NCBI RefSeq assembly: GCF_003148465.1
Contig: NZ_QGGI01000011.1
Coordinates: 1 to 64,000 of the forward strand
Reading direction: 5' to 3'
DNA: 64,000 bases
Origin: Oceanotoga teriensis
GTDB lineage: Bacteria > Thermotogota > Thermotogae > Petrotogales > Petrotogaceae
In this document: positions 48,981 to 59,301 of the stretch, piece by piece
Layout of the letters: every line of letters starts with the position of its first letter
Position numbering within the stretch: the stretch's first letter is position 1
Translations under genes and position numbers: made by a program
Notes under the pieces: model-generated
The model's database searches: none
The model's input: the letters and a program-made list of their open reading frames with translations, nothing else
What the model was told of the DNA's origin: nothing

Positions 48981-51900
48981 ATGAAAAAGAGCCTGTTATT
49001 TATTTTAATATTTATTTTTAGCACAATTTCATTTTCTTCAATAAAAGCAGTAATGCCAAAAAATAATCAAGAAGAAGTTGATTTAAAAATAATATTTAAA
49101 TGGAGTTATGAAAGTGATCAAAATGATAAAAAAGTTAAATTTAGATTGTATATATCAGAAAATCCAAATATAAAAGAAGAGGATTTAAAATTAAATAATC
49201 TTTTTTCAAACTTTTATGCAGGCGATGTTTTAAAACCCCAAACAACGTATTATTGGAAAATAGAAGCATTATCTGAAGGGAAAGTTATAGATAGTCAAAC
49301 TTTTAGATTCAAAACAAGAGAATTACAAAATGGAGACATATATCAAATATTTTTTGAAAATTATAAAAGTTTAATACCATATGGAAAATATTTTATAGGT
49401 ATAAACAATGATTCATTTGAAATAATAGATGAAAATAAAAATAAAATAAAAACAATAAATGTTAAAGGAATAATAGAGAATATATATAAAAAAGAGATAA
49501 TTTATATAAAAACTAAAGAAAAATTATATTTATTATATCCAGATATGATAATAAAAGAATTTAATTTTGATAAAAAAATAATAAAAGTAAATGAAGAGAC
49601 TTATATAACAACAAAAAACGAAATATATGAAATAAAAAGTAATAAAATAGAGAAAATATATAGTTCACGTGAAAATATCATAGATACAAAAATATTTGAT
49701 CAGCACATAATAATAGCTTTAAAAAATAAAATACAAATATTAGACTTTGATATGAAAAATATAAAAGAAATAAATTTTAAAGAAGAAATACAACAAATCC
49801 TTACATCAAAAAATAAAATATTTATTATAACAAAAGACTATATACAAGAACTCGACAAAAATTATGATGAAATAAAAAGACTAAACTTTAAAATATCTTC
49901 GGATAAACTAAATAGAAAGTATTATATACACAGTGAAAACATGATAATTCTTGCTGGAAATAATACATTACAAATTTATAATGAAAAATTAGAATTGATA
50001 AAAAACATAAATTATGAAGAAAAATACGATTATTTTATATCTTTAAATGAAGATAAATATGTGTTAATAGGAGAAAAAATAAAAGCTTTTGATAATAACA
50101 ATAAAAACATATGGTCTTATTCTTCAATAAGCCCATTAACTCCTATATCAAAACCATATAAAGATGGATCTTTGATATCAATAGGAATAACAGACTATGT
50201 TGACAGATATATAATATTTTTTGAAGAAGATATAACAAATGAAACAAACTATAAAAAAGTAATACAAAAAATAGAACAGGATTCAAATGAAAAAGAAAAT
50301 CAAACAAAATTTGAAAACACAGAAGAAAAAATCCCAAAAGATACTGAAAATACTGTAGAACCTATGAAAAATGATGAAGACCTAATTAATATAGATCATA
50401 CAGAACCAGCAACTGTTGAAAATACTATAAATGAAATTACAGAAGAACCTACGCCATTAAATATAACAGAAAATGCTACAAAAATAGATCTTGAAAAAGA
50501 AATAAAAAGTTTAACTCAAAAATCAACCGAAACAACTAAAGAATCAACGATAACTAATTTTACTAAACCAGCCACAAAAATTGATAATATAAAAGAACCA
50601 AATATATTTGAACAAATATTTGGATTAGTTCCAAAATATGATTATAAAATAAATTTTGATTATGATGAAATAGATGAAAAACAAATAAAAATTACTTGGG
50701 ATGGAACACCTATTACAGATAATTTTATAATCGAACTCAATGATAACAAAATTTTAAATACAGTAACTACAGAGTCAACTGAAGCTACATTGACTTTAGA
50801 AAAAAATAAAAATTATAATTTAAAATTATTTACTATAAAAGACGGAAAAAAAATAAACTTAGATTCTAAAGATTTTAAAACTACAAACTTTCAAAAAACG
50901 GTCATATTAGATAAACTATACGATGAATATGCTTATAAAGTAGTATCAGATGAAAATAATTTTTACATTGCAGGTTATGAATCAAGAGATTCATGGAAAG
51001 CAAAAATAATAAAAATAAATAAAAATTTAAAAGAAAAAAAAGAATACATATTTGGTGGAGATGGTACAGATTTCTTTAAAGATATAATAATTACAAAAGA
51101 TGCATCAGAGAATGCAAATTTAGTAGCTATTGGAGATACATCATCAAAAGGCTTAAATGGAGATGCTTATATAGTTTCTATAACTTCAGATGGAACTATA
51201 AATTATGAAATAAATTATGGTGATTTTGGAAGAGATAGTGGAATATCTATTTCTAATATAGACGACGAAAGTTATGTTGTATCCGGTAACTTTTTTACGA
51301 ATAATAGATTAACAGATATCTTTGTATCAAAATATACAAAAGATGGTGCAAGAATATGGACAAATAACTTTGGTGGAAAAAATTTAGAAATCGCCAACTC
51401 AGTTGTTAATAATTCAAATCAAGGATTTATAGTTGTAGGATATACGAGATCATTCGGATATGGAAAATTTGATATATATGCTATAAATATAGACTATTAT
51501 GGTAAAGAAAAATGGTCTAATGTGTATGGAGATGAAAATGATGATATTCCAGTTGGAACTATAAAATTGGGTAAGAAATATTACATAATATATGAAAATG
51601 AAGGCGAAGAAATATATCATAGTATTGTAGAATTAGATGAAAATAAAGGATTTGGAAATTCTTTCAAACAAAAATCAGAATACAAAGAAAAATTACTTGG
51701 AACAAAAGTAATAAATGATGAAATATATACATATGGATACAGAGAAAAAAATAATAAAAAATTAGGAATAGTTTATAAAATAAATATAGAACAGAAAAAA
51801 TTTGAAGAATTTTTAGAAATAGAACTTGATGGAGACTATCAAATAATAGGCTTGGATATACAAGATGAATATATATATACATATGGAAACATTATGACAA

Positions 51901-52016
51901 AAAGAAATACGAACAATATAGTAATAACAAGAGATATTATTCAACAAAAGAATCAAGATCAAATTCAAACAAAAGATTTAGAAGAAAAAAAGGAGATAAA
52001 AAATGGAATTATGTAG
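48981..52016 (+). CDS. Large secreted beta-propeller/fibronectin-like protein
   Basis: The 1011-residue product has a signal peptide (about 4-19), a fibronectin-III-like domain (about 20-115; PQTTYYWKIEAL), a region of short beta repeats (about 120-415), a Thr/Glu/Pro/Asn-rich low-complexity linker (about 430-545), a second Fn3-like domain (about 555-640), and a C-terminal repeat domain with SBBP-like blades (GGDGTDFFKDI, GDFGRDSGISI, GGKNLEIANSV, GDENDDIPVG). It should be extracytoplasmic, perhaps part of the toga or cell-surface sensing. It follows the TPR gene by 12 bp and overlaps the methyltransferase start. Confidence 0.75.
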   Translation: MKKSLLFILIFIFSTISFSSIKAVMPKNNQEEVDLKIIFKWSYESDQNDKKVKFRLYISENPNIKEEDLKLNNLFSNFYAGDVLKPQTTYYWKIEALSEGKVIDSQTFRFKTRELQNGDIYQIFFENYKSLIPYGKYFIGINNDSFEIIDENKNKIKTINVKGIIENIYKKEIIYIKTKEKLYLLYPDMIIKEFNFDKKIIKVNEETYITTKNEIYEIKSNKIEKIYSSRENIIDTKIFDQHIIIALKNKIQILDFDMKNIKEINFKEEIQQILTSKNKIFIITKDYIQELDKNYDEIKRLNFKISSDKLNRKYYIHSENMIILAGNNTLQIYNEKLELIKNINYEEKYDYFISLNEDKYVLIGEKIKAFDNNNKNIWSYSSISPLTPISKPYKDGSLISIGITDYVDRYIIFFEEDITNETNYKKVIQKIEQDSNEKENQTKFENTEEKIPKDTENTVEPMKNDEDLINIDHTEPATVENTINEITEEPTPLNITENATKIDLEKEIKSLTQKSTETTKESTITNFTKPATKIDNIKEPNIFEQIFGLVPKYDYKINFDYDEIDEKQIKITWDGTPITDNFIIELNDNKILNTVTTESTEATLTLEKNKNYNLKLFTIKDGKKINLDSKDFKTTNFQKTVILDKLYDEYAYKVVSDENNFYIAGYESRDSWKAKIIKINKNLKEKKEYIFGGDGTDFFKDIIITKDASENANLVAIGDTSSKGLNGDAYIVSITSDGTINYEINYGDFGRDSGISISNIDDESYVVSGNFFTNNRLTDIFVSKYTKDGARIWTNNFGGKNLEIANSVVNNSNQGFIVVGYTRSFGYGKFDIYAINIDYYGKEKWSNVYGDENDDIPVGTIKLGKKYYIIYENEGEEIYHSIVELDENKGFGNSFKQKSEYKEKLLGTKVINDEIYTYGYREKNNKKLGIVYKINIEQKKFEEFLEIELDGDYQIIGLDIQDEYIYTYGNIMTKRNTNNIVITRDIIQQKNQDQIQTKDLEEKKEIKNGIM

Positions 52017-54016: not shown

Positions 54017-54622
54017 TTATATTTTGACTTGAAAAGTCTTCAAATAAGTTATTATAGATTTTTCGCTTTCCGAAGTTAAAGAATAGCTACCTTTATGAAG
54101 GCACCAATCAAAAACCATTCCTCTACCTAAACGCATACATACTTCAGATACTTCTTCAGGGTTAAAATTAGGCAGAAATTCTCCGGCTATAATACCTTTT
54201 TCAAGAGATTCTTTAATTAAAACATAAGGGTATCTTTTAGAACATAAAGAATATCTATCTTCGCTTGTAAGTAAATGGGTATAAGCATCGGCTACAAACC
54301 TCCAACCTAAATCTTCAATAAGAATATTTGCCCTATTAAAAAGTTTTAAAATCCTATCTAAATTATTCTCATAAACTATATTTTCTATATTTTCAGCAAT
54401 CATGGAGTCTATTTGAATATAAGATTTTTCCAATATTTTTTCTTTAGAATCAAAATAATGATAAAAAGTACCTATAGAAACATTGGCTTTATTACAAATA
54501 TCTTTTATTTTAACTTTTTTAATTCCTTTGCTTTTAAATAATTCTAAAGCTATTTCAGTTATTTTAAACTTAGTATTTATAGCTTGTTTTTGTCTGTTTG
54601 TTAGATTATTCAACTTTTTCAC
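54017..54622 (-). CDS. TetR-family transcriptional regulator
   Basis: The 201-residue protein has the TetR DNA-binding domain at residues about 17-65 (ALELFKSKGIKKVKIKDICNKANVSIGTFYHYFDSKE in outline), with the recognition helix VSIGTFYHYF, and a helical ligand-binding C-terminal part. It is divergent from the flavoprotein-reductase-membrane protein operon. A dyad that fits a TetR site lies over that operon's start site, so this regulator probably represses it until a small molecule binds. Confidence 0.9.
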   Translation of the reverse strand: MKKLNNLTNRQKQAINTKFKITEIALELFKSKGIKKVKIKDICNKANVSIGTFYHYFDSKEKILEKSYIQIDSMIAENIENIVYENNLDRILKLFNRANILIEDLGWRFVADAYTHLLTSEDRYSLCSKRYPYVLIKESLEKGIIAGEFLPNFNPEEVSEVCMRLGRGMVFDWCLHKGSYSLTSESEKSIITYLKTFQVKI

Positions 54623-54631
54623 CTCGCATTA

Positions 54632-54660
54632 ATTATATATTTTTTTTTTAAGATATACAA
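54632..54660 (-). promoter_or_regulatory. Promoter of the tetR gene
   Basis: On the minus strand TTGTAT (54660-54655), a 17-bp spacer and TATAAT (54637-54632). It is close to the start codon, so the leader is very short. Confidence 0.6.
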
Positions 54661-54749
54661 ATATTATCAAAATAATGGATATTTATGCAAATAATTGGAA
54701 AAAATGTAAAATAAGTTAAAAAAACTTTAATTTAATCTTTGTGAAGAAT

Positions 54750-54778
54750 TTGACAATATTTTTTTGTAATGATAAAAT
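54750..54778 (+). promoter_or_regulatory. Promoter of the redox operon
   Basis: TTGACA (54750-54755), a 17-bp spacer and TAAAAT (54773-54778), a strong promoter directly before the dyad operator. Confidence 0.82.
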
Positions 54779-54784
54779 TCCATT

Positions 54785-54809
54785 GAACTTAATTCGGTGA
54801 ATTAAATTC
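54785..54809 (+). promoter_or_regulatory. Candidate TetR operator
   Basis: GAACTTAATTC (54785-54795) and GAATTAAATTC (54799-54809) are inverted copies with one mismatch and a 3-bp spacer, covering the expected transcription start. Size and position fit repression by the divergently encoded TetR protein. Confidence 0.65.
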
Positions 54810-54832
54810 GATATATTAAAAGGGGGAATTTT

Positions 54833-56365
54833 ATGAACTATGATGTAATCATTATAGGTGCTGGAAATGGTGGATTATCAACTGCTACTAAATTAGCAAT
54901 AAATGGCAAGAAAGTTTTAGTATTAGAAAAACATAATATACCTGGAGGGTGTGGAACAAGCTTTAGAAGGGGAAGATTTGAATTTGAGGTTGCACTTCAT
55001 CAATTGAGTTCTATGGGAAGTTCAGAAAAACCTGGTCCATTAAGAGAACTTTTTAAAGAATATGGAATAGAAGACAAAATAGAGTGGATTCCTATAGAAT
55101 CATTGTTTAAAGTTAATTTTCCAGATGGAAAAGGAGTATCTCTGCCAGCTAATAGGAAAGATGCTGAAAAATTATTAAAAGAAAAATTTCCTGATGAATC
55201 CGAAAATATTACAAATTATTTTGATACAGTGTATAACTTTAGTATAGAAACTGACAAATTTGCAGAAATGCAGGCTAATTCTGTTAATGAACCAAGTAAA
55301 TTAAAAAAAATAATGATAAAACAATTTTTTAGTAAAAAATTTCCGACGCTTGCAAAATATGCATTAAAAAGTACTCAAGAAGTTTTGGACGAATTTTTCA
55401 AGAGTGTAGAATTACAATTATGTGTGAATGCGTATTGGTGTTTTATGGGAATGCCTCCTAATAGATTTCCTTTTTCAATACTTGCAAGATGTACTTATAT
55501 TTATATGGAAGATAAACCATATTATCTTAGAGGTGGATCACAAGTTATTTCACAAGCTCTTGCTGATACTATAAGAAATAATGGAGGAGAAATAAAATAT
55601 AATTGTGGAGCAAAACAAATACTTATAAAAAATGGTAAAGCTTATGGAGTGATAGATGAGTTTGATAATGAGTATAAATGTGATTTTGTTGTATCAGGAA
55701 TATCTCCGATAGAAACGTATTTTAATTTAATAAAAACAGAAGAAAGTGTGAAACAGGCTAAAGAATATTTAAAGAGTTATACAGTTGGAATATCTGCTTT
55801 AACATGTTTTATTGGATTAGATTGTACACCTAAAGAAATTGGATTTACAGATAGTTTTAATTTAAATTATGAAAATCTTGATTGTAATGAATCATTTCAA
55901 AATGCATATAAATTAATGCCAGATATAGATCCGCTTATAAATACCTGTTATACAGTAGATGATCCAAAAGTTTCTCCAGAAGGAACTACAGTTATAACAG
56001 CTGGTACTTTAAAATATGGAAAAGCATGGATGGAACTATCTGCCGAAGAATATTATGAAACTAAATATAAAGCGGGCAATATGATAATAGATCGTTTAGA
56101 AAAAAAATATCCTGGATTTCGTTCACATATAGAAGAGTTCGAAGTTGCGACTCCATTAACCCATATGAGGTATTTAAAACATCCACAAGGTGCTATATAC
56201 GGATTTGAACAAGATTTGAAATCAAGTGTTTTTTTCTTTCCAAGAGAAGAATATATAAAGAATTTAACTTTTTCAAATGGTTGGGTAAATATATGTGGAT
56301 TTGGGCCAAACTATCTTTATGGAAGCACAGTTGCGGATAAGATTCTTAAAGGAGTTGAAAAATAA
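54833..56365 (+). CDS. CrtI/retinol-saturase-type FAD-dependent oxidoreductase
   Basis: The 510-residue flavoprotein belongs to the phytoene desaturase/carotenoid isomerase/retinol saturase superfamily. It has the dinucleotide motif DVIIIGAGNGGLSTATKLA at residues 3-21, LEKHNIPGGCGTSF, the flavin region PYYLRGGSQVISQAL near 228, and the C-terminal WVNICGFGPNYLYGSTVADKI. The family adds or removes hydrogens on hydrophobic polyene or enone substrates. No carotenoid genes occur here, so a different lipid or steroid-like substrate is likely. GGGGG precedes the ATG. The gene overlaps the reductase by 1 bp. Confidence 0.85.
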   Translation: MNYDVIIIGAGNGGLSTATKLAINGKKVLVLEKHNIPGGCGTSFRRGRFEFEVALHQLSSMGSSEKPGPLRELFKEYGIEDKIEWIPIESLFKVNFPDGKGVSLPANRKDAEKLLKEKFPDESENITNYFDTVYNFSIETDKFAEMQANSVNEPSKLKKIMIKQFFSKKFPTLAKYALKSTQEVLDEFFKSVELQLCVNAYWCFMGMPPNRFPFSILARCTYIYMEDKPYYLRGGSQVISQALADTIRNNGGEIKYNCGAKQILIKNGKAYGVIDEFDNEYKCDFVVSGISPIETYFNLIKTEESVKQAKEYLKSYTVGISALTCFIGLDCTPKEIGFTDSFNLNYENLDCNESFQNAYKLMPDIDPLINTCYTVDDPKVSPEGTTVITAGTLKYGKAWMELSAEEYYETKYKAGNMIIDRLEKKYPGFRSHIEEFEVATPLTHMRYLKHPQGAIYGFEQDLKSSVFFFPREEYIKNLTFSNGWVNICGFGPNYLYGSTVADKILKGVEK

Positions 56366-57531
56366 TGTCAGATTTAAAAGAAATGATAATAAGAACGATG
56401 CCTAATGGAAAAGAAACTTTAAATGAAATAAAAGTTTTGAAAAAAACTGGTTATGATTATAGCCTTGAAAAAGGAAAGGTAGAGAAAACAATAAATAGAT
56501 TGCATAGAGATAATTTAAAATTAATAGTATCTGAAATAAGAAATATTAATGAAAATGCAAAAACATTTAGATTGATAACAAAAAATGAATATCTGCCAGT
56601 TTTTCAAAGTGGACAATATATAAATTTATTTGTTGAAATAGATGGAGTTAGAACAAGTAGACCATATAGTATATGTTCTTCAAATAAACAAAGAGCATAT
56701 TATGAAATTACAGTTGCAAGAATACAAAATGGATTTGTTTCAGATTATTTTTTAGATAAAGTGAAAGTTGGAGATGAATTTGAAGCTAATGGCCCAGCCG
56801 GAGTATTTCATTTCAATCCTGCTTTTCACAATAAAAATAATGTTTATATAGCAGGTGGAAGTGGTATTACTCCTTTTATAAGTATGATAAAAGAAGTTAC
56901 AGAATCAGGATTGGATAGAAATATTCATTTGATTTATGGCTGTCGTGATGAAGATAATATTTTATTTAAAGAAGAATTGGAAAGAATACAAAATAAACAT
57001 TCAAATTTTAAATTTTCTGTTATTTTATCAGAAACAAAACAAACATACAAAGGATTGAAAGGATTTATAGATGAAAAATGTATTAAAAATCTTATAAAAG
57101 ATATAAAAAATAAAACATATTATATATGTGGTCCACAAATAATGAACGATTTTGTAGTTAATGAATTAGAGAAAATGAATATAAAGAAAAGTATGATCAG
57201 AAGAGAAATGTTTGGAAGTAGACAAGATATTCAAAATGAACCAGGATGGCCGAAAAATTTATCAGGTAATGAAACTTTTAAAATTAAAATAAATGATAAA
57301 AAAGAGATAGAAGCGTTTAGTAAAGACTCATTATTAACAACTCTCGAGAAAAATGGTATAAGAGTAAATGTATGTTGTAGAAGTGGGGAATGCAGTCTTT
57401 GTAGAGTTCAATTAAAAAAAGGTAAAGTATTTATGCCAAGAGGAGTTTTACTTAGACATGCAGATGAAAAATTTGGATATATTCACTCTTGTAAAGCTTA
57501 TCCTATAACTGATATAGAAATATGCATCTAA
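56365..57531 (+). CDS. FAD/NAD(P)H reductase with C-terminal [2Fe-2S] domain
   Basis: The 388-residue protein has an N-terminal extension of about 50 residues, an FAD domain with RPYSICSS near 99-106, an NAD(P)-binding domain with AGGSGITPFI near 166 and a CGPQIMNDF segment near 254, then a plant-type [2Fe-2S] ferredoxin domain with CRSGECSLC near 338 and a last cysteine in HSCKAYP. This is the domain order of phenol hydroxylase/vanillate demethylase reductases. It should carry electrons from NAD(P)H, most simply to the adjacent flavoprotein or the membrane proteins. Confidence 0.9.
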   Translation: MSDLKEMIIRTMPNGKETLNEIKVLKKTGYDYSLEKGKVEKTINRLHRDNLKLIVSEIRNINENAKTFRLITKNEYLPVFQSGQYINLFVEIDGVRTSRPYSICSSNKQRAYYEITVARIQNGFVSDYFLDKVKVGDEFEANGPAGVFHFNPAFHNKNNVYIAGGSGITPFISMIKEVTESGLDRNIHLIYGCRDEDNILFKEELERIQNKHSNFKFSVILSETKQTYKGLKGFIDEKCIKNLIKDIKNKTYYICGPQIMNDFVVNELEKMNIKKSMIRREMFGSRQDIQNEPGWPKNLSGNETFKIKINDKKEIEAFSKDSLLTTLEKNGIRVNVCCRSGECSLCRVQLKKGKVFMPRGVLLRHADEKFGYIHSCKAYPITDIEICI

Positions 57532-57556
57532 ATAATATAATAATGGGGGAATTAAA

Positions 57557-58324
57557 ATGACAAATTCTGGTTTTGAAAAAAAGGGAATAAATTCTAACTT
57601 AATTTTAATTATAATGACTGGAATATTCACTGCTTTATCTATGCTCACCTCATATAATCCTATTTGGGCAAATATTCCAATCAATATCATAATACCTATA
57701 ATAGTTCTTTTGAAATTAAAAACAGTATTTTTTGAAAAATTAAAACTTTCTACTCTTCTACTCATGAGAATACTGGTTGTTTTTGCTGCTTTAAATCTTT
57801 TAAATGGACAACTGTATGTGAAAATTGTCATTATATTTTTGGTTATCAACATATTGGAAGCTACAATTACGGATTTAAAAAGAAAAAAATATTTTAATTT
57901 TATAACTGGATTAATATTGGCAATTTCAATATTTTATATGAAAGGAACATGGTTTGGAAAATATTATGATGCAAATCTTCCAACAGATATTGGAACAGTA
58001 TTTTGGTGGATTGCCTATACAATATGGAATTGGTTTTTTGTTACGAATGAATTTAGTCCTTCTATTGCAAAGTTTCATTTAGGAGTTTTAACTGCTCCTT
58101 TAATAGGAGTTTTGATAACAAGAAATCCAGGATTATGGTTAATATTTAGAGCAAATTCTTTAACTATCGCAGGTTTTATTCAAATAGCTAAAAAACAATA
58201 TTGGGAAGAAAAAATGAAAAGTGAAAAATTTGAATATTTTGTTAAAAAAACACAAAATACTTCGGCACAATTGATTTTTATGATTATCAATGTATCGCTA
58301 ATTTTATTATCTGTTTTGATTTAA
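57557..58324 (+). CDS. Polytopic membrane protein, related to the next gene product
   Basis: I do not recognise an established function. The 255-residue protein has six or seven membrane segments. Segments such as INILEATITDL and WWIAYTIWNWFFVTNEFS match INILEAVYRDF and FWILAYGIWNISYCYNAIS in the following gene product, so the two are paralogues. The second of these resembles DUF5692, which would extend to this one. GGGGGAATT precedes the ATG. As third gene of the TetR-controlled operon it may hold the redox enzymes at the membrane or handle their lipophilic substrate. Confidence 0.65.
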   Translation: MTNSGFEKKGINSNLILIIMTGIFTALSMLTSYNPIWANIPINIIIPIIVLLKLKTVFFEKLKLSTLLLMRILVVFAALNLLNGQLYVKIVIIFLVINILEATITDLKRKKYFNFITGLILAISIFYMKGTWFGKYYDANLPTDIGTVFWWIAYTIWNWFFVTNEFSPSIAKFHLGVLTAPLIGVLITRNPGLWLIFRANSLTIAGFIQIAKKQYWEEKMKSEKFEYFVKKTQNTSAQLIFMIINVSLILLSVLI

Positions 58325-58342
58325 AGGATGGGGGGGAATTAA

Positions 58343-59266
58343 ATGTTCTTTTTTGATAAAATAAATTTATCTTCTTTTATTGCTGCTTTATTAGTATTAT
58401 TGGGTTTGATATTAATAAATGAAATAACAAGAAGAAATAAATGGATATCAATATCTGTATATATAATAATGCCTATAATATTAACAATGACTGTATGGCC
58501 AAAGACTGCTGGGGCGGGAACATCTTCTGGATACTGGTTTGCATGGGTTAAAACTTATTCTGCTTTAATAGGAGTAATAGGGTTTATGGCTTTAAGATAT
58601 ATAAAAAAATTAGAAAATAATAAATTTATGCTACTTTTTCCAGGTCTTATATTATCAATAAATATATTGGAAGCAGTTTATAGAGATTTTGAATGTTTTA
58701 GTAAAACGGGAATTATAGAAAATGGTTTATATATGTTGGGGGGACCTTGGAATATAATAAATGGAATTGCTGGAATAATAAATATATTAACCATAACAGG
58801 TTGGGGATATATAAGAATTTCAAGAAACAAATCAAAGGATATGGTTTGGGCAGATCAATTATGGTTTTGGATTTTAGCATATGGAATTTGGAATATATCA
58901 TATTGTTATAATGCAATATCTGATAGATCTTTTTATGCAGGGTTTATACTTATTTTATCTTGTGTAATTGCAGAATTTTTTGTAAAAAAAGGTATATGGC
59001 TTCAACATAGAGCACAAACTTTAGCAATATATACAATGTTTACATTAACTTTTCCAAGCTTTGCCAGCAACTCTATTTTTGCAGTAAAATCATCTCATAA
59101 ACCAGAAGCTTTACTCTTGCTAAGTATATTATCATTGATCATGAATGTTTCTGTATTAATATATGAAATATATACTATTAAAAATAATAAATTAAATCCA
59201 TTCAAAAATGAGATATATACGAAATTAAAATCTTATAAAAAGAATTTAAAACAAAATAAACTTTAA
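58343..59266 (+). CDS. DUF5692-like polytopic membrane protein
   Basis: The 307-residue protein has about eight membrane segments. The opening LLVLLGLILINEITRRNKW, the loop WPKTAGAGTSSGYWFAWVKTYSAL and the conserved IWNISYCYNAISDRSFY fit my memory of DUF5692, a family without assigned function; this was not checked by search. It shares several motifs with the preceding gene product. GGGGGGG precedes the ATG and a strong terminator follows, closing the operon. Confidence 0.65.
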   Translation: MFFFDKINLSSFIAALLVLLGLILINEITRRNKWISISVYIIMPIILTMTVWPKTAGAGTSSGYWFAWVKTYSALIGVIGFMALRYIKKLENNKFMLLFPGLILSINILEAVYRDFECFSKTGIIENGLYMLGGPWNIINGIAGIINILTITGWGYIRISRNKSKDMVWADQLWFWILAYGIWNISYCYNAISDRSFYAGFILILSCVIAEFFVKKGIWLQHRAQTLAIYTMFTLTFPSFASNSIFAVKSSHKPEALLLLSILSLIMNVSVLIYEIYTIKNNKLNPFKNEIYTKLKSYKKNLKQNKL

Positions 59267-59268
59267 AC

Positions 59269-59301
59269 AAAAAGGTAGAGAATTAAAATCTCTACCTTTT
59301 T
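59269..59301 (+). terminator. Terminator of the redox operon
   Basis: AAAAAGGTAGAGA (59269-59281) pairs with TCTCTACCTTTTT (59289-59301) around a 7-nt loop, the T-run continuing to 59303. Confidence 0.9.

Follow-up and report, generated by a model that had tools for sequence, protein, structure and literature searches.

A four-gene operon of Oceanotoga teriensis, opening with a CrtI/carotenoid-isomerase-type FAD flavoprotein and faced by a divergent TetR-family gene across its promoter, may direct a TetR-controlled, probably anaerobic hydrogenation of hydrophobic unsaturated chains at their carbon–carbon double bonds, the likeliest substrates being unsaturated fatty acids or acyl lipids, polyunsaturated or conjugated ones; we hold this reading with about even confidence. 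The operon lies on the + strand at positions 54833–59266 of the window, the 64,000-nucleotide stretch of contig NZ_QGGI01000011.1 analysed here. It encodes the flavoprotein, an FAD/NAD(P)H reductase with a [2Fe-2S] domain (FNR), and two membrane proteins, MP1 and a member of the DUF5692 family. Hydrogenation of unsaturated fatty acids by anaerobic bacteria has been known for decades, for the most part without its genes. Such bacteria also hydrogenate isoprene, few of the enzymes have been identified, and the process affects the fats of milk and meat, lipid signalling in the gut and anaerobic digestion.

The layout supports a single inducible unit, as an earlier note on this DNA had proposed (Table 1). 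The genes are tightly packed, with a 1-base overlap (TAATG) between the flavoprotein and FNR genes and gaps of 25 bp from FNR to MP1 and 18 bp from MP1 to DUF5692, and this packing, the divergent TetR gene, the promoter and the terminator are all found where that note had placed them. The divergent gene product carries the TetR_N DNA-binding domain and belongs to the TetR family. The promoter (11/12) is the top site of its region, though shuffled sequences hold equally many such sites, and the terminator hairpin has a stability z of -5.8, with 0/200 shuffles equally stable. G+C content is 27.1% in the operon and 26.2% in the window. Further 5′, positions 48981–52016 of the window encode a large protein (1011 aa) whose N-terminus resembles a signal peptide and whose middle part is of low complexity, rich in T, E and N; its gene overlaps the following one by 14 bases. 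The matching operator dyad of the earlier note fared less well: a 12/14 dyad does lie just 3′ of the -10 element, but shuffling yields its match in 2.4% of cases for the promoter sub-region and in 15% for the whole spacer, so that we infer a candidate TetR operator whose dyad is real and whose modest statistics are too weak to stand alone.

Table 1. Features of the operon and its divergent regulator (positions in the window)
Feature	Positions	Strand	Basis and remarks
TetR-family repressor gene	54017..54622	-	201 amino acids (aa); TetR_N 2e-13 (Pfam)
Promoter TTGACA-17-TAAAAT, extended -10 (TG)	54750..54778	+	consensus match alone, 11/12
Candidate TetR operator, imperfect dyad ATTGAACTTAATTC ggt GAATTAAATTCGAT	54782..54812	.	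12/14, gap 3
CrtI/carotenoid-isomerase-type FAD flavoprotein	54833..56365	+	510 aa; Pfam/NCBIfam; candidate C=C reductase or isomerase
FAD/NAD(P)H reductase (FNR), C-terminal [2Fe-2S] domain	56365..57531	+	388 aa; candidate electron donor
MP1, diverged DUF5692-like membrane protein	57557..58324	+	255 aa; hydrophobic segments
DUF5692 membrane protein	58343..59266	+	307 aa; Pfam E 2.5e-123
Intrinsic terminator hairpin, 13-bp stem followed by T tract	59269..59301	+	-16.3 kcal/mol

The flavoprotein matches Amino_oxidase/NAD_binding_8 in Pfam. Among the NCBIfam matches listed it falls under every curated carotenoid-enzyme cut-off, with 169 bits (E 1.7e-49) against the top model, carotenoid isomerase TIGR02730 (cut-off 586.9), and 132.7 bits against CrtI phytoene desaturase TIGR02734 (cut-off 238.1); no retinol saturase profile is among those matches. 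Its predicted structure, built from four sequences, was too poor to use (pLDDT 40). The absence of carotenoid genes pointed out earlier extends to the whole genome, where phytoene/squalene synthase (PF00494) has no match anywhere while the same search was positive in 7/14 control genomes, and membership of a carotenoid pathway was thereby ruled out. The FNR protein has the FAD_binding_6, NAD_binding_1, Fer2 domain order of the PaaE-type architecture in Pfam, scores 179.1 bits against the PaaE model TIGR02160 (below its cut-off of 420.8) and carries a cysteine motif, CCRSGECSLC...C, that is invariant across the four-gene cassettes. In Syntrophomonadia, the class of the Syntrophomonadaceae locus L061 (L numbers designate loci in other genomes), relatives of the CrtI-type protein occur in 14 of 63 genomes; FNR lies directly 3′ of CrtI in all 17 loci examined, most of the pairs overlapping by 1 or 4 bases. 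The CrtI and FNR trees are broadly alike. Because the two genes are adjacent, and mostly overlapping, in every one of these loci, gene context supports FNR as the probable electron partner of the flavoprotein, the role suggested for it before. Separately, a plasmid of Ligilactobacillus acidipiscis (L008) carries a distant CrtI homologue (31%) with an FNR-like protein that has no [2Fe-2S] domain and a divergent TetR gene; this pair, the sole one of its kind from the plasmid search, is not accompanied by DUF5692.

The two membrane proteins, previously described as DUF5692-like twins, are related, if unequally close to the family. The last gene product scores 411.6 bits against DUF5692 (PF18948; gathering cut-off 27). 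MP1 has no single Pfam match and reaches 31.9 bits once the pieces are joined, and the L037 and L011 orthologues score 37.2 and 31.4 bits, so that by profile score MP1 is genuinely related to DUF5692, though diverged. An alignment of 57 DUF5692 sequences has 45 invariant columns, many holding W, Y, N, D, E, K or R in predicted helices, and a subset is retained in MP1; the polar and aromatic residues at such invariant positions, E110, D115, N184 and R223 among them, may mark an intramembrane active or binding site. The AlphaFold model of DUF5692 is multi-helical and confident (pLDDT 92.2, pTM 0.89), and neither a Foldseek comparison with the PDB (best E 0.097, TM below 0.3) nor a sequence search of it found a similar protein. 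DUF5692 proteins may be intramembrane isomerases or substrate handlers. A TetR gene lies within 900 bp of DUF5692 in 50/82 loci, against only 3 TetR matches in 654 kb of flanking sequence. One Schaalia genome (L040; G076:C1) holds three DUF5692 copies, two of them less than 4 kb apart, and a DUF5692 search across 247 Actinomycetes found a match in the centre genome alone.

The earlier note had staked its proposal on the four families recurring together elsewhere, and they do. The DUF5692 alignment was scanned over contigs of 84,980 species, and among the best 80 of more than 560 loci all four families occur together in a Lachnospiraceae genome (L010), an Epulonipiscium-like metagenome-assembled genome (L011) and Holdemania (L037). 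A further cassette, likewise with a divergent TetR gene, is found in the family of L010 (L095), for a total of four Firmicutes genomes besides the host. Identity to the window proteins in L010, L011 and L037 is 63–71% for CrtI, 55–62% for FNR and 48–54% for MP1, and the gene order in L010, L011 and L095 is MP1–CrtI–FNR–DUF5692. Recurrence of the cassette in four other genomes rules out a chance neighbourhood, and vertical inheritance within the host's group is ruled out since none of 60 relatives of the host has DUF5692. Few genomes carry the CrtI orthologue: 1/391 in the class and 2/299 in the family of L010, and 1/295 in the order of L037 (each count includes the centre genome). The cassette is conserved, and its patchy spread suggests horizontal transfer.

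A pointer to the chemistry comes from a second, putative reductase found in the same setting. DUF5692 has been reported near homologues of IsrA (co-occurrence 0.4), a proteomically supported putative isoprene (conjugated diene) reductase (PMC10134865). In Lachnospiraceae and Erysipelotrichaceae, 27/48 DUF5692 loci have IsrA no more than 5.5 kb away, usually with HypA and HypB, which extends the published co-occurrence. Gene orders in L233 and L234 are MP1–IsrA–DUF5692 and MP1–HypB–IsrA–HypA–DUF5692, and L012 has the same families in a looser order; in these three loci IsrA takes the position held by CrtI–FNR in L010, L011 and L095. Holdemania L037 carries both modules, and homologous GntR-FCD regulators stand beside loci of either type (36% identity between L011 and L007). 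The MP1/DUF5692 frame would accept two unrelated reductase modules, IsrA with HypA/HypB or CrtI with FNR, and their interchangeability within one set of membrane proteins and regulators predicts a common chemistry, the same kind of reaction. The window shares with the IsrA systems a DUF5692 gene next to a local regulator (TetR or another), a combination commonly found there that does not strictly define them. Among the IsrA loci, the Subdoligranulum plasmid of L007, typed as mobilizable, holds an unannotated HypB–IsrA–HypA–DUF5692 locus with a divergent GntR-FCD regulator. In L229, L230, L231 and L232 a membrane protein of 230–234 aa, weakly similar to DsbD_2 and containing a GVDHY motif, lies between IsrA and DUF5692; it is possibly a NicO-type nickel transporter serving IsrA.

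The neighbours of CrtI–FNR and DUF5692 in other genomes point to fatty acids. An acyl-CoA ligase, enoyl-CoA hydratase, FabK-like or CoA-transferase gene lies within four open reading frames of the CrtI–FNR pair in 14/17 Syntrophomonadia loci, which supports, without proving, an acyl substrate. In Paenibacillaceae (L015, L016, L021, L023, L056) a homologue of PAI-type linoleate isomerase, about 420–440 aa, lies directly 5′ of DUF5692, at about 6.4–8.9 kb of those loci, and the L056 protein matches 2b9w with an E of 2.8e-70. The PAI homologue is itself preceded by a conserved gene of about 345–380 aa with a helix-turn-helix-like N-terminus. Four Syntrophomonadia loci (L126, L131, L132, L133) have the order CrtI–FNR–enoyl-CoA hydratase–FabK-like–acyl-CoA ligase beside a divergent sigma-54 PAS activator, a gene set that may form an uncharacterised lipid pathway of syntrophic fatty-acid oxidisers.

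We found no described system with a CrtI-type protein, FNR and two DUF5692-family proteins in the literature, in keeping with the novelty claimed earlier. The closest is the isr operon of Acetobacterium wieringae ISORED-2, an inducible anaerobic operon for the reduction of an unfunctionalised diene, with homologues of its putative isoprene reductase IsrA co-occurring with DUF5692 and TetR; that reductase, however, is a flavoprotein with multiple [4Fe-4S] clusters, served by nickel chaperones (HypA/HypB), in place of the CrtI-type and FNR-[2Fe-2S] proteins of the window (PMC10134865). In Rhodobacter sphaeroides furan fatty acid synthesis, UfaD is an FAD protein resembling phytoene dehydrogenase that works on conjugated dienes and on the double bonds of acyl chains, but it is a desaturase of aerobic cells, turning a branched acyl monoene into a conjugated diene, and the sections of that report drawn on here describe neither a dedicated FNR partner nor DUF5692 (PMC7380195). 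The superfamily of carotenoid isomerase, retinol saturase and CrtI phytoene desaturase shares the N-terminal FAD motif and supplies the best profile matches, whereas the window protein differs in its scores under the curated cut-offs listed, in a genome without a carotenoid synthase and in its operon partners. PAI of Cutibacterium (Propionibacterium) acnes (2b9w), with its Paenibacillus homologues, is also an FAD protein of the amine-oxidase superfamily and adjoins DUF5692 in Paenibacillaceae, but is a stand-alone isomerase outside the CrtI subfamily and has no FNR partner.

We favour fatty acids as the substrate class because of the PAI and Syntrophomonadia contexts, and reduction over desaturation because the setting is anaerobic and an NAD(P)H reductase is always the partner. 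The reaction proposed for IsrA, conjugated-diene hydrogenation, and the fatty-acid context together lead us to an inducible hydrogenation of acyl or diene substrates. In such a scheme, an unsaturated ligand would free TetR from the dyad at the promoter it faces. Electrons would pass from NAD(P)H to the FAD of FNR, on to its own [2Fe-2S] domain and then to the FAD of its constant CrtI-type partner, whose reduced flavin would give two electrons, with protons, to an activated or conjugated double bond, the reverse of the family's usual desaturation. Both DUF5692-family proteins would present the acyl chain or first move its double bonds into conjugation; elsewhere, IsrA with HypA/HypB would fill the reductase step of the same arrangement. 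The purpose could be to detoxify membrane-damaging unsaturated lipids, to use double bonds as an electron sink, or both. The hydrophobic substrate envisaged in the earlier note is thus narrowed, with unsaturated acyl chains and conjugated dienes favoured by context and steroids, quinones and retinoids less so, and its interpretation as a whole is partly supported.

Several points weigh against hydrogenation of acyl chains. CrtI-type enzymes mostly desaturate or isomerise, and we know of no exposure of the host to polyunsaturated lipids. Full-length IsrA (about 900 aa) was not found in the host genome, which has only partial matches (query 378–793, 36%, to reading frames of 460–465 aa). Syntrophomonadia are rich in beta-oxidation genes and their loci are mutually related, so that the association is weaker than 14/17 implies, and the PAI to DUF5692 spacing of some 230–310 bp perhaps reflects separate transcripts. 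UfaD works as an O2-linked desaturase (PMC7380195), and the published IsrA evidence is proteomic and concerns isoprene rather than fatty acids (PMC10134865).

A bolder version, which we consider unlikely, makes DUF5692 a novel fold class, enzymes within the membrane that isomerise polyunsaturated acyl chains to conjugated dienes, with CrtI–FNR as the matching conjugated-diene reductase, interchangeable with IsrA. If true, the cassette would supply the full gene set for fatty-acid biohydrogenation in one unit. Membrane-bound linoleate isomerases have been purified from anaerobes and are poorly assigned to genes. For BBI of Bifidobacterium, a membrane-bound fatty acid isomerase like the linoleate isomerase of Butyrivibrio, gene function was proven by deletion and complementation (PMC11812354; see also PMC10019597). 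The analysis names DUF5692 as a testable family, its predicted fold being without a PDB match.

The strongest alternative to hydrogenation, though an improbable one, is a redox-neutral isomerase, in which the CrtI-type protein, its flavin reduced by FNR for priming, shifts or flips (cis to trans) double bonds in acyl or polyene chains with no net reduction. Plant carotenoid isomerase needs reduced flavin and is redox-neutral, the corresponding NCBIfam model is the top match here, and PAI, an FAD isomerase, adjoins DUF5692 in Paenibacillaceae. The score is, however, far under the isomerase cut-off, the presence of a dedicated FNR-[2Fe-2S] partner in every case suggests that electrons are delivered in stoichiometric amounts, and IsrA substitutes for the CrtI–FNR pair in the same setting. 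Somewhat less probable still is a retinol-saturase-like hydrogenation of a polyprenol, membrane isoprenoid or environmental terpene or isoprene; the carotenoid-type family of the flavoprotein and the isoprene connection of IsrA (PMC10134865) would suit it, but the genome has no phytoene/squalene synthase, the neighbours elsewhere are fatty-acid genes and PAI acts on fatty acids.

We give little credence to a lipid-modifying desaturase that makes an unusual or conjugated acyl chain, with FNR passing flavin electrons to NAD(P)+. Characterised CrtI enzymes do desaturate, but cassette hosts are mostly anaerobes, oxidation of alkane to alkene by NAD+ is unfavourable and detoxification better suits TetR-inducible logic; the UfaD precedent was seen to act only in aerobic cells (PMC7380195). 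Least probable of all is that DUF5692 and MP1 are exporters or tolerance proteins against a hydrophobic toxin while CrtI–FNR reduces a xenobiotic or steroid enone, for although DUF5692 is a multi-helix membrane protein, usually TetR-linked and often alone, its model is unrelated to solved transporter folds and its genes are repeatedly paired with those of lipid and diene enzymes.

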